Below, one piece after another: positions 1,040 through 24,176 of a stretch of DNA of 34,185 bases. The stretch's first letter is position 1; every line of letters begins with the position of its first letter. This DNA is from Cytophagaceae bacterium (lineage in GTDB: Bacteria; Bacteroidota; Bacteroidia; Cytophagales; Spirosomataceae), in the NCBI GenBank assembly GCA_026785975.1, contig JAJAZB010000216.1, positions 1 to 34,185 of the forward strand. Reading direction: 5' to 3'. The notes below the pieces were generated by a model, which was given only the letters and a program-made list of their open reading frames with translations, had not been told where the DNA came from and made no database searches. Both the position numbers and the translations under genes were made by a program.

Positions 1040-4000
1040 ATGCCCGATACGATGCAAAAAACCGACCTGCGCGACCTTCTTCAACGCCGTATCCTCGTTC
1101 TGGACGGGGCCATGGGGACGATGATTCAACGGTATAACCTCACCGAAGAAGACTATCGCGGGATGCGTTTCCGCGATTGGCCGCAGTCGCTCAAGGGTAA
1201 TAATGACCTGCTCAGCCTGACCCGCCCCGACATCATCCGGGACATCCACGCACAGTATTTCGAGGCGGGAGCCGATATTGCCGAAACCAACACCTTTTCG
1301 GGGACGAGCATTGCGATGGCCGACTACGGCATGGAAAGCCTGGTGTACGAACTGAACTACGAATCGGCCCGGCTGGCCCGCGAGGTCGCTGATGAATTTA
1401 CGGCTCGTAACCCCGACAAACCGCGCTACGTGGCGGGTTCGATGGGACCGACCAACCGCACGGCCTCGCTTTCGCCCGACGTCAATAACCCCGGCTTCCG
1501 GGCCGTGAGTTTTGATGATCTGGTGGAAGCCTACACCGAGCAGGTGCGCGGGCTGGTGGATGGCGGCGTGGATGTGCTGCTGGTCGAAACCGTGTTTGAT
1601 ACGCTTAACGCGAAGGCCGCGCTGTTTGCGATTGACCAGTTTTTTAGTGTAGCTCCGACCTCTGGTCGGAGATCGACCGCAGGTCGAAATGTGTCCGCTC
1701 CGCTACAGAATCAGTCGGAAGTAGCGGGGGCGTTTCGACCTGCGGTCGATCTCCGACCAGAGGTCGGAGCTACCGGTCGGAGCCACCTTCCCATCATGAT
1801 CTCCGGCACCATCACCGATGCTTCGGGCCGTACACTTTCGGGGCAAACGACCGAGGCGTTTCTAACCTCGATTTCGCACCTGCCGCTGCTGTCGGTGGGG
1901 CTAAACTGCGCCCTGGGGGCCGACCAACTCCGGCCCTACGTGCAAACGTTGGCGCAGAAAGCCCCGTTTTTCACCTCCGCGCACCCCAACGCCGGGTTGC
2001 CCAATGAAATGGGTGAGTACGACCAGACGCCCGCCGAAATGGGGGTACTCATCGACGATTTTTTAAAAGACGGCTTCCTCAACATCATCGGCGGATGTTG
2101 CGGTACCACGCCCGAACACATCCGGGTGATTGCCGATACGGCGGCGAAGTACCCACCCCGCCCACTGCCACAAACCGACCGCACGTTGCGACTTTCCGGG
2201 CTGGAACCCCTGGAAGTGACGAAAGAAAAAATTCTGTTTTTGAACGTCGGTGAACGCTGCAACGTCACCGGCTCCAAGAAGTTCGCCCGGCTCATCCGGG
2301 ATAATAACTATGACGAAGCCCTGAGCGTGGCCCGCGAACAGGTTGAAAACGGGGCACAGGTCATCGACGTCAACCTGGACGAAGGCATGATCGACGGAAT
2401 AGCCGCCATGACGACGTTTCTTCATTTGCTCGCCGCCGAACCCGATATTTCCCGCGTACCCGTCATGATCGACTCCTCGAAGTGGGAGGTCATCGAGGCG
2501 GGGTTGAAGTGCGTGCAGGGTAAAGCCATTGTCAATTCCATTTCGCTCAAGGAAGGCGAAGGAGCGTTTCGCCAGCGTGCCCTGACCGTTCAGCGCTACG
2601 GCGCGGCGGTCGTCGTGATGGCCTTCGATGAGCAGGGGCAGGCCGACAGTTACGAGCGCCGCATTGAAATTTGTGAACGTGCGTACCGGATTCTGGTGGA
2701 CGAAGTCGGGTTTCCGGCCGAGGACATCATTTTTGACCCCAACATCCTGACCGTAGCCACGGGCATCGACGAGCACAACAATTACGCCGTGGACTTCACC
2801 AAGGCTACGCGCTGGATCAAAGAAAACCTGCCCTACGCGAAGGTGAGCGGGGGTGTTTCCAATGTCTCGTTCTCGTTTCGGGGCAACGAACCCGTTCGGG
2901 AGGCCATGCACTCAGCTTTTTTGTACCACGCCATCAAAGCGGGGATGGACATGGGCATCGTCAATGCCGGGCAATTGACGGTCTACGATGACATTCCCAA
3001 AGACTTTCTGGCACTGGTCGAAGACGTACTGCTCAACCGCCGCTCCGACAGTACCGAGCGCCTCGTGACGTTTGCCGAAACGATCAAAAATAAAGGCAAA
3101 TCCGAGCAAATTGTCGACGCCGCCGAATGGCGCGGATCGCCCGTGAACGAACGCCTTACCCACGCGTTGGTGAAGGGCATCGCCGATTTTATCGACGAAG
3201 ACGTCGAAGAGGCCCGCCACCTATTCAGTAGGCCGATCGAAGTCATCGAAGGGCCGCTGATGGATGGCATGAACGTAGTCGGCGATTTGTTTGGCGAAGG
3301 CAAAATGTTCCTGCCGCAGGTCGTGAAGTCGGCGCGGGTGATGAAAAAAGCGGTGGCGTATTTGCTGCCATTTATTGAAGCAACCAAAACCGCTGGGGTG
3401 AGTTCCTCCAATGGAAAAGTGCTGATGGCGACGGTGAAAGGCGATGTACACGACATTGGCAAAAACATAGTGGGCGTGGTGCTGGGTTGCAACAACTACG
3501 AAATCATCGACCTGGGCGTGATGGTGGCAACGGAGAAAATCCTGGCGGCGGCCAGAGAGCACCACGTCGACATCATCGGGTTGAGCGGCCTCATCACGCC
3601 GAGCCTCGACGAAATGGTGGGCGTGGCCAAAGAAATGGAGCGACAGGGTTTCAAAATACCCCTGCTCATCGGGGGGGCTACGACGTCGCGCATTCACACG
3701 GCGGTAAAAATCGACCCGCATTATTCCGGGCCGGTGATCCACGTACTCGATGCGTCGCGCTCGGTGCCGGTGGCCGGTCGCCTGACGCAATCGGCTCAGA
3801 GTCAGGAAGAAATCTGGAAGGAAATCAAAACGGAGTACGCCCGGCTCCGCGAAGAACACGCCCGTCGGAAAGCCGATAAAAACTTCGTTTCCATCGAAAA
3901 AGCCAGGGACAATAAAGCAAAAATTGACTGGTCGGGCTTCGTGCCCACCAAACCGCAGTTTCTGGGAACAAGGGTTTTCGACGACTACGATTTGGCCGAA

Positions 4001-4960
4001 ATCGCGAAGTACATCGACTGGACGCCCTTTTTCCAAACCTGGCAATTGCACGGTAAATACCCGGCGATTTTTGACGATAAAATCGTTGGTCAGGAAGCCC
4101 GGAAGTTGCACCACGACGCGGTGGTGATGCTCGGCGAACTCATCCGGGACAAGTCGTTGCAGGCCAAAGCGGTCATCGGCTTCTGGCCCGCCAACTCCAT
4201 GCAGGACGATATTCTGCTGCACGATTTTGAGGAAATCAACCGCGAAATTCCCTGCGAGCGGCACGGGAGTCACCAACATTTGGAGTATAAACTATCAAGT
4301 CCGAAGTATCAGGCCGAGCACCTGATTGCACCGGGCACCTTGGACTTAGGACTTTGTACGCTTCGGCATCTCCGCCAGCAAAGTGAGAAAGCCGCCAATC
4401 TGCCCAACTATTGCCTGAGCGATTTCATCGCTCCGCTCGAAAGTGGCCGCGAAGATTACCTCGGGGGCTTTGCCGTCACGGCGGGCATTGGGATCGAGAA
4501 ACTCATTGAAAAATACGAGCGCGACCACGACGACTACAACAGCATCCTGGTTAAATCGCTGGCGGACCGCCTCGCCGAGGCCTTTACCGAGTTAATGCAT
4601 CAGCGCGTCCGCCGCGAATTCTGGGGCTACGCACCGAATGAACAACTTGACAATGAGGCTCTTATCAAGGAAAAATATCAGGGTATCCGCCCTGCGCCGG
4701 GCTATCCGGCCTGCCCCGAACACACCGAAAAAGCAACCTTGTTCGAGCTGTTGCAACCCGAAAGCATAGGCATCACCCTCACGGAAAGCTTCGCCATGTA
4801 CCCCGCCAGCAGCGTGAGCGGTTGGTACTTTTCGCACCCAGAAAGCCGGTATTTCCCCGTTGGTAAACTCCAGAAAGACCAGGTAGTGGACTACGCCAAA
4901 CGCAAAAACAGGAGCGTGGAGGAGATGGAACGGTGGTTGGGATCGGTGTTGGGGTATTGA
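1040..4960 (+). CDS. metH: Cobalamin-dependent methionine synthase (full length)
   Basis: 1306 aa; [34 protein letters not shown], pterin-binding domain, cobalamin motif [21 protein letters not shown]-terminal activation domain. Contains an in-frame palindromic insertion at 1649-1774. Confidence 0.97.
1649..1774. repeat. REPIN-like composite palindromic element inserted in frame in metH
   Basis: Perfect 41-bp inverted arms 1649-1689 / 1733-1773 (GTAGCTCCGACCTCTGGTCGGAGATCGACCGCAGGTCGAAA). Each arm holds sub-hairpins CTCCGACC-TCT-GGTCGGAG and TCGACC-GCA-GGTCGA. GTAG occurs at both outer ends, and inner CGCTAC/GTAGCG flank the centre. Confidence 0.88.
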
Positions 4961-21998: not shown

Positions 21999-22649
21999 TC
22001 AACGAAATCCCTGGAGCAAAAACGGGTTCGACCGGCGCTCCGTACCGATGGTCGTTTCAGGCCCGTGACCGGGGAAAATGCGCATGGCGTCGCCCAAGGG
22101 TAAAAGTTGGGTGTAAATGCTGTTCATCAAGGCTTCGTGGCTACAGCCCGGAAAGTCGGTTCGGCCAATGCTCCCCCGAAACAGCACGTCGCCGCTGAAG
22201 CAGAGGTTTTGATCGCGGTTGACAAACGCCACGTGTCCTGGCGCGTGCCCCGGCACCAGGAGCACTTCCAATTCAGATTCACCAAAATACACCCGCTCCC
22301 CCCCAACCAGGTAGGATTCGGGTAAAATTTCTTCATAATCCCTGATTCCATAATTCGGAGCCAGCATTTTGGCGGTCCGCAGTACCGGCAAATCAGCCTC
22401 GTGCAGGCGCAGCCCGACGTGGTACGTGCGTGAAACGAAGGCGTTGCCAAGCACATGATCGACGTGCGCGTGGGTGTTGAGCAACCCGATAATTTTCAAC
22501 TTCTGGGTTTCAATAAATTTCTTCAACGTGTCGCGCTCGCTCTGAGTGGCGCAACCGGGATCGATGATAACGGCCTCCAGGGTATCGTCCCAGAGGACGA
22601 ACGTGTTTTCGGCGAAAGCATTGAAAACAAAAGTCTGAAAGCGAATCAT
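21999..22649 (-). CDS. MBL-fold metallo-hydrolase (glyoxalase II-like)
   Basis: IIDPGCATQSERDTLKKFIETQKLKIIGLLNTHAHVDHVLGNAF...LLVPGHAPGHVAF...CFSGDVLFRGSIGRTDFPG...IFPGHGPETTIGTE. Confidence 0.92.
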   Translation of the reverse strand: MIRFQTFVFNAFAENTFVLWDDTLEAVIIDPGCATQSERDTLKKFIETQKLKIIGLLNTHAHVDHVLGNAFVSRTYHVGLRLHEADLPVLRTAKMLAPNYGIRDYEEILPESYLVGGERVYFGESELEVLLVPGHAPGHVAFVNRDQNLCFSGDVLFRGSIGRTDFPGCSHEALMNSIYTQLLPLGDAMRIFPGHGPETTIGTERRSNPFLLQGFR

Positions 22650-22692: not shown

Positions 22693-22717
22693 TTTGTACA
22701 GCGGATTGCCTAATCCG
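22693..22717 (+). repeat. REP hairpin, left of RAYT
   Basis: TTTGTACAGCGGATTGCCTAATCCG with CGGATT/AATCCG stem; inverted 24/25 match at 23396-23420. Confidence 0.85.
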
Positions 22718-22732
22718 CAATAAAAAGCTGCG

Positions 22733-23368
22733 TTAGTAATCAGGATTCAGGTACGTGTACGGCCATTTTGTCCAGTCATCCACCAAGCCTGCTTTGACTG
22801 GATTATTCAGAACATAGGCAATAATTCGCGCCAGTTCAGCCGCATTGCGTACAATATGGTCATAGCTTTCTTCTTGCCAGAACGCCCCGGTTTGACCCAG
22901 TGAAAGGTTAGCCTTTTTGGCCGTGAATTGCTTGAACGATTGCATGACTTTATGCAAAGGGATTTGTGGGGGAATTTTGCTGATGACCAGGTGAGCGTGA
23001 TTTGGCATAATCGTGTAAGCGATTAGTTCAAAAACCGTTGGGTGGCGGTGATGAAGCGCATCTACCACAAGCCGGGCGATTTCTGGTTGTGACAGCCAGC
23101 GCGGTCCGAAAGCGGCGGCATCGAGTACTTTGTCGAATTTGCCGAAATAGCGTCGGCGTTGCTCGTCGAGCAGATGGAGACGGGTTTCGTAATTAGGTTC
23201 CCTCCGATGAATGGTCAGCAATGCGGTCTCTTGGTCTGCTTTCAACTGCGCAATGGCCTCGCCTGTCAGACTGCCACTAAGCCGAACGTTGACGAGAAAT
23301 GTAGCGCCATCGTGCTGAAAATGAGGAAGATTGCGGCGGTAGTACGTTTTGTACGCCATAATTGACAC
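22733..23368 (-). CDS. REP-associated tyrosine transposase (RAYT / Y1 TnpA-REP, IS200-like)
   Basis: YYRRNLPHFQHDGATFLVNVRLSGSL...FELIAYTIMPNHAHLVI (HxH motif)...FWQEESYDHIVRNAAELARIIAYVLNNPVKAGLVDDWTKWPYTY. Confidence 0.92.
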   Translation of the reverse strand: MSIMAYKTYYRRNLPHFQHDGATFLVNVRLSGSLTGEAIAQLKADQETALLTIHRREPNYETRLHLLDEQRRRYFGKFDKVLDAAAFGPRWLSQPEIARLVVDALHHRHPTVFELIAYTIMPNHAHLVISKIPPQIPLHKVMQSFKQFTAKKANLSLGQTGAFWQEESYDHIVRNAAELARIIAYVLNNPVKAGLVDDWTKWPYTYLNPDY

Positions 23369-23395
23369 TGATCTGCACGAAGATCGACTTTAGGA

Positions 23396-23420
23396 CGGAT
23401 TAGGCAATCCGTTGTACAAA
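23396..23420 (-). repeat. REP hairpin, right of RAYT, overlapping 3' end of alpha/beta hydrolase
   Basis: CGGATTAGGCAATCCGTTGTACAAA; reverse complement TTTGTACAACGGATTGCCTAATCCG. Confidence 0.85.
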
Positions 23421-24176
23421 TTCAGTAACCGCCTCGACGAACGCGACGGGCTGATCGGCCTGCACCCAGTGGCCCGCCCCGGCAATCGTCCGGATGAGGG
23501 CGCTGGGGAAAATTCGGAGAATATCCCGTTCATCTTCCGGCAAAATGTACGTTGATTCGGCCCCGCGCAGAAACAAAACCGGCTTCGGGGTTGGGCGGAG
23601 GTACGTGAGTTCGCTCCCCACCAAATGAATATCGCGCGTGAGCACGGGCAAGTTCAATCGCCAGCCGAAATGCCCCGTGGTCGCATCCCGGTAGAGGTTT
23701 TTTAGCAAAAACTGCCGAACCCCCGGATTAGCTTCGTAGCGGCTCAGCAGTTCTTCGGCCTGCTGCCGACCCGACAACGTTCGGAGGTCGATGGCATTGA
23801 GGCCAGCCAGAATCGGAGCGTGGTGAATCGGGTAAAATTTGGGCGCAATATCAACGACGACGAGCTTACTCCAGGCATCGGGATAGTTCATGGCAAACTG
23901 CATCGCCGTTTTCCCACCCATCGAATGACCGAGAATAATAGGTGCTTCCAGATTTTGATCGTCAATGAATTCCTTCAAATCGGCCGCCATCACCTCGAAG
24001 TCGAAATCATCATGGTGGGGCGAGCGCCCGTGGTTGCGTTGATCGAGGGTGAATACACGGAATTGGGTACTAAGCATTTTGGCCACCGTCAGCCAATTGT
24101 CGGCGGAGCCAAAAATGCCGTGTAAAATCACCAGCGCCGGGCCAGTTTCACCAGTTTGTCGGAAGAAGAGTTTCAT
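23400..24176 (-). CDS. Alpha/beta fold hydrolase (YbfF-like esterase)
   Basis: MKLFFRQTGETGPALVILHGIFGSADNWLTVAKML...LDQRNHGRSPHHDDF...ILGHSMGGKTAMQFA...GAGHWVQADQPVAFVEAVTEFVQRIA. Confidence 0.92.
   Translation of the reverse strand: MKLFFRQTGETGPALVILHGIFGSADNWLTVAKMLSTQFRVFTLDQRNHGRSPHHDDFDFEVMAADLKEFIDDQNLEAPIILGHSMGGKTAMQFAMNYPDAWSKLVVVDIAPKFYPIHHAPILAGLNAIDLRTLSGRQQAEELLSRYEANPGVRQFLLKNLYRDATTGHFGWRLNLPVLTRDIHLVGSELTYLRPTPKPVLFLRGAESTYILPEDERDILRIFPSALIRTIAGAGHWVQADQPVAFVEAVTEFVQRIA

Follow-up and report, generated by a model that had tools for sequence, protein, structure and literature searches.

The locus comprises a RAYT gene lying between two inverted copies of a short dispersed palindrome (REP), one of which overlaps the 3′ end of a neighbouring hydrolase gene. 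Positions are those of the window, meaning the whole 34,185-nucleotide stretch of DNA that was analysed:

22693–22717, plus strand: first REP copy, with tag TTGTA and a 7-bp hairpin; the full repeat unit covers about 22694–22727, and this is 1 of 25 genomic copies.
23396–23420, minus strand: second, inverted REP copy, overlapping the hydrolase 3′ end; full unit about 23386–23419.
22733–23359, minus strand: RAYT (TnpA-REP) gene, 208 aa, assigned from NCBIfam NF047646, Pfam Y1_Tnp, the alignment to PDB 4er8 and invariant columns.
23400–24176, minus strand: alpha/beta-hydrolase gene, 258 aa; the codons for QRIA and the stop TAA (23400–23414) fall within the REP, and F-V is native by homology.
23400–23402, minus strand: hydrolase stop codon TAA, partly in the REP loop (GCCT) and partly in the stem.
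21999–22649, minus strand: MBL-fold hydrolase gene (Pfam Lactamase_B), downstream of the REPtron.

Read along the minus strand, the order is hydrolase, REP, RAYT, REP (in plus orientation) and MBL-fold hydrolase, with the RAYT ATG 41 nt past the hydrolase stop. The 25-mers TTTGTACAGCGGATTGCCTAATCCG (22693–22717, plus) and TTTGTACAACGGATTGCCTAATCCG (23396–23420, minus) had been placed correctly in the first-pass annotation and are identical at 24 of 25 positions, with 0 matches expected for such a pair in shuffled sequence. A CGGATT/AATCCG stem had also been described; the hairpin is indeed present in both copies, but its stem is 7 bp long and encloses a GCCT loop. The left copy forms GCGGATT/AATCCGC and the right copy ACGGATT/AATCCGT, the single base that differs between them being compensated at its stem partner. 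Searching the window against Rfam returned no family match.

On sequence grounds, the gene is a RAYT (TnpA-REP), a domesticated Y1 (HUH) transposase. Its product matches Pfam Y1_Tnp and scores 81.4 bits against the NCBI REP_Tyr_transpos model (NCBIfam NF047646, cut-off 80), compared with 25.6 bits against the IS200 model, below the cut-off of 55. Alignment with E. coli TnpA-REP (PDB 4er8, the only solved TnpA-REP structure; E=4.8e-9) places the HUH motif at H121/H123 and pairs W161, Q162, D167, R171 and Y182 with W94, Q95, E100, R104 and Y115 of 4er8. The aligned HUH, W-Q...D/E-H...R and tyrosine residues are invariant or nearly so in our alignment of the family (A1), and W161, Q162, D167 and R171 are the predicted REP-contact residues. 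According to the same structural alignment, the tyrosine of SYDHIVRN, the motif singled out in the first-pass annotation, is not the catalytic one, which is instead Y182 in AYVLNNPVKAGL. The REP sequences TTGTANNGCGGATTGCCTAATCCGC and TTGTANNGCGGATTGCCTAATCCGCACTAAAA are candidate substrates of the enzyme.

We then analysed the distribution of the repeat. In the 4.93-Mb genome, a fragmented assembly of 523 contigs (87.7% complete) in which REP copy counts are lower bounds, CGGATTGCCTAATCCG occurs in 25 exact copies, a count that could miss strongly diverged copies. Every one carries TGTA at a fixed distance on its 5′ side, and a reversed control pattern of the hairpin gave 0 matches in the genome. 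As a multi-copy dispersed palindrome (25 copies, control 0), the hairpin is a genuine REP. The description of a RAYT bracketed by inverted REPs is thus borne out, the hairpin being present in 25 copies rather than only at these two sites. When the 25 copies are stacked, the REP unit (TTGTANMR-CGGATTGCCTAATCCG-YVCTVAAAA) is seen to begin at −8 and to end near +25 relative to the hairpin core, and it includes a 3′ tail that the first-pass annotation lacked. Hairpin bases are identical at 400/400 positions across the stack, while the outermost stem pair is G-C in 19 copies, A-T in 3 and A/C in 3, and the base after TGTA is A in 14, C in 5, T in 4 and G in 2. Measured against the pattern of GT[AG]G lying 0–2 nt 5′ of a 7–20 nt stem, GTA is present in 25/25 copies but strict GTAG in only 2/25; the fourth base of the tag is followed by one further base and then the 7-bp stem.

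Besides the pair spanning the RAYT, a closely spaced inverted doublet was found at one place only (contig C267), the remaining copies being singlets. With one true REPIN doublet among 25 places, the REPs of this genome may be only weakly active or no longer active. Allowing up to 3 mismatches yielded no credible degenerate copies, only two poor hits with 3 mismatches each, which we took as chance, and CGGATTGAATAATCCG (L013) was excluded as a copy for want of the TGTA tag. The hairpin was found in none of 58 relatives, none of 222 other genomes of the family and no viral contigs. It is therefore species-specific, as is usual for REPs.

At the gene level, the genome contains one full match to the RAYT and no second copy of it, in contrast to the multiple transposase copies and movement as a unit of IS200/IS605. 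RAYT loci were compared across many phyla (92 in all, every stem sequence being particular to its locus); 63 of them carry a matching hairpin on both flanks, compared with 1.0 in mismatched controls, indicating that the arrangement seen here is that of a standard REPtron. We are accordingly confident that the locus is a REPtron, consisting of a single-copy RAYT gene and two head-outward copies of its cognate REP, with 25 dispersed copies in this genome only. It shares with published REPtrons (Nunvar 2010, PMC2817692; Quentin 2018, PMC6006769) the pairing of each REP family with a single Y1 HUH gene, two inverted flanking REPs, dispersed intergenic copies and a species-specific hairpin. It differs from them in carrying TGTAN rather than a strict GT[AG]G tag, and in having a small family (25) of nearly all singlets without hairpin variants. 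IS200/IS605 elements (IS608, ISDra2) have in common with it Y1/HUH chemistry, hairpin ends and a one-sided short target or guide, but the locus lacks TnpB and shows no sign of unit transposition. By analogy with the biochemistry of the E. coli, Stenotrophomonas and Marinomonas TnpA-REP enzymes, the RAYT presumably acts on the folded, single-stranded hairpin by nicking and joining it, which would disseminate the REP.

The right-hand REP coincides with the end of the hydrolase gene. As had been reported, the minus strand from 23420 to 23400 reads TTT GTA CAA CGG ATT GCC TAA, the last six codons of the hydrolase and its stop. To establish which of these codons the repeat contributed, we compared 29 hydrolase homologs from other genera. 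Most end 0–2 residues past a conserved F-[VIL] column, a few extend 3–4 residues more and one has a longer tail, whereas the window hydrolase ends EFV-QRIA. Because the homologs end around the F-[VIL] column, F-V (TTT GTA) is native, and Q-R-I-A with TAA is REP-coded. The first-pass annotation had assigned (F)VQRIA and the stop to the REP, which holds for QRIA and TAA but not for F-V. Its suggestion, one of two offered, that the hydrolase gained a new terminus when the RAYT cassette landed there is partly supported. The REP swaps or extends about 2–5 residues, which lie past the end of the alpha/beta fold. In 3/29 homologs, all REP-free, TTTGTA occurs natively at this position, so that of the DNA sought at the 3′ end of hydrolases without a RAYT, the tag is present and the hairpin absent. 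In genome G036, the hydrolase has the 12-mer GAATTTGTACAA followed by TAG and reads GAATTTGTACAATAG.

We infer an insertion at the hydrolase end from these homologs of other genera, the genus itself being represented by one genome. The hairpin would have been inserted 3′ of the native TTTGTA (codons F-V) and, in the most plausible order of events, would have pushed the old stop downstream, so that ribosomes would now read Q-R-I-A and stop at the hairpin TAA. Such an insertion would have survived because the changed hydrolase tail is, in all likelihood, harmless.

A different reading is recruitment of the REP for a function at the 3′ end of the gene, where it would serve the hydrolase as a translation terminator, mRNA stabiliser or ribosome-stalling site and would also control the RAYT start. 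In its favour, the stop lies within a 7-bp hairpin, the RAYT start follows 41 nt later, and 11/25 copies are found directly at stops in the sense orientation. In E. coli, REPs close to stop codons reportedly affect translation (Liang and Deutscher 2015). However, the 49-nt RNA around the hydrolase stop is no better folded than its shuffles (z=−0.01), gene functions and reading frames are heterogeneous across sites, and heads, that is, the tag ends of the repeat, also adjoin start codons. The U-tract of a terminator is absent after the hairpin, for which reason a role in transcription termination was rejected. We consider recruitment improbable. The earlier suggestion that the REP is both terminus and recognition site describes the locus correctly, but we found no sign of selection for a double role.

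REP-derived stops are not confined to the hydrolase. Four other genes in the genome stop at the tag TAA (TGTAA), which makes the loop stop of the hydrolase a minority arrangement, and in a gene for an ABC-transporter fragment the last codons and the stop are likewise those of a REP, read in a different frame from the hydrolase. Across 61 relatives, the GTA[AG] tag closes an ORF of ≥100 aa in 29/86 cases, whereas GTA[AG] in general does so at a rate of 12% within these flanks (Fisher P=2e-8); several of these ORFs are probably the RAYT gene itself. In RAYT relatives, at L033, L037, L110, L118, L131, L159, L164, L171 and L172, an ORF of 192–263 aa ends at the tag TAG/TAA of the 3′-flank REP; these ORFs are probably the RAYT gene itself. 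GTAG REPs that overlap a gene end and supply its stop codon were already known (Di Nocera 2013, PMC3733652), with just over 10% of intragenic REPs lying at ORF ends. In those cases the stop is the tag TAG, whereas the hydrolase stop is a TAA of the hairpin loop and stem that follows four REP-coded residues. Donation of a stop codon is thus an ordinary event for such repeats. REPs lie at gene ends generally. The hydrolase has a harmless tail of 2–5 residues, which is not evidence of dual function, and the stop codon inside the REP is very probably a tolerated by-product rather than a specially evolved terminus.

The flanking-REP arrangement and the REP-supplied stop are therefore already published; less expected is the placement of the tag end at gene boundaries, which a second family in the same genome allowed us to examine independently. 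A second RAYT, on contig C491 and 40–58% identical to the window RAYT, has its own REP family, GGTAG-CTCCGACC-TCC-GGTCGGAG, with at least 31 copies (within 3 mismatches). In all nine of its start-codon cases, only 1–4 nt separate GTAG from an antisense ATG, indicating that the REP replaces the ribosome-binding region of the antisense gene. A Shine-Dalgarno role for these copies was rejected, as 5/9 have GGCG instead of GGAG. Loci L190, L193, L244, L248, L250, L252, L254 and L255 (G000) are examples of GGTAG-CTCCGACC with GTAG near an antisense ATG. Other second-family REPs (L199, L240, L241, L242, L245 and L256) lie inside long predicted ORFs, L242 being an inverted doublet.

We scored a gene boundary wherever a sense gene stops or an antisense gene has its ATG, and compared both ends of the repeat with a null model built from 333 kb of genome stretches. 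Genes were called by a simple codon-usage caller, which may be wrong in single cases but was the same for head and tail. Heads adjoin a boundary in 15 of the 25 first-family copies and in 17 of the 31 second-family copies, compared with 4/25 and 3/31 for tails; pooled, this amounts to 32/56 heads and 7/56 tails, with about 12% of random intergenic positions at a boundary. Two unrelated REP families thus follow one placement rule, in which the tag end, not the tail end, adjoins the gene boundary. REPs would accordingly settle tag end first at gene boundaries, and a stop within the REP would be a tolerated by-product of this.

Such a pattern could in principle arise from selection and space alone, with insertion anywhere, survival only between genes and chance overlap with stops. 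Coding density is about 85%, and a stop is met in 2/3 sense frames through the repeat, so surviving overlaps with gene ends would tend to end in the REP. Chance should, however, treat head and tail alike, and the asymmetry observed weakens this reading, which we regard as unlikely.

We also asked whether the 5′ tag belongs to the element or to the site in which it landed. The tag (TGTA here; GTAG/GTAA in relatives) may be a captured target site, a pre-existing sequence 3′ of which the RAYT sets the hairpin, as IS200/IS605 elements do. Stop codons (TGTAA, GTAG) and boundaries would then be recurrent landing places, with the native stop usually kept. Comparison with homologs leans towards this, two of the genes having REP-free homologs with TTGTA at the corresponding codons. 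Where the REP adjoins a sugar-isomerase-like gene, the gene ends TTG TAA, and its nearest REP-free homolog ends likewise at the same column; other homologs and a tandem paralog exceed this length by one or two residues. A phosphorylase-like gene with a REP stops at exactly the column of 5/12 homologs, and TTTGTA is, as described above, native in three REP-free hydrolases. The excess of heads over tails at boundaries in both families points the same way, as does the variation of the base following TGTA beside an invariant hairpin. The REPtron-internal tail varies too, however, making tag variability suggestive rather than proof, and for E. coli-type TnpA-REP enzymes GTAG is recognised as part of the REP, with cleavage at CT or CA (PMC8266576). 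Furthermore, no true empty site or same-genus genome was found among the 58 relatives or 222 other family genomes. Intergenic TGTA shows only a slight excess near stops (11.6% versus 9.7% by chance), so the target sequence alone does not explain the boundary enrichment. On balance, target capture is possible, though we would not count it as the probable outcome. Somewhat more tentative still is its extension, according to which RAYTs would be gene-boundary-seeking single-strand transposases that take the tag (GTAG/GTAA/TGTA) from the target, with stops and the antisense-start sides of genes as insertion sites and the coincidence of tag and stop as their footprint.

The rule followed here by two unrelated small families, with the tag end at a stop codon or beside an antisense start codon, bears on the spread of REPs and on the choice of their insertion sites. 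Homologous genes that lack the REP offer a way of deciding between a tag that belongs to the element and one that belongs to its target. In the latter case the GTAG motif would take on a new significance and be open to a simple assay; in the former, the locus would be a neat instance of a repeat that has harmlessly given a protein its final residues.

A copy of the second family also lies inside a core metabolic gene of the window:

1648–1774, plus strand: REPIN of the second REP family (GGTAG-CTCCGACC...), 127 bp, in frame in metH (1040–4960, plus strand).

The gene encodes cobalamin-dependent methionine synthase, and the REPIN adds about 40 residues (...GATGRS) between FF and LPIMISGT in the homocysteine methyltransferase domain. 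The same linker is 18–20 residues long in most relatives and is enlarged in other genera to 39–65 aa (L226 (G007) and L211–L216 compared). In G007 it is extended by 232 aa in frame, and the addition appears to include an endonuclease-like ORF between repeats. Judged from these sequences, insertions may recur at the metH linker, which would make it a hot spot within an enzyme of core metabolism.
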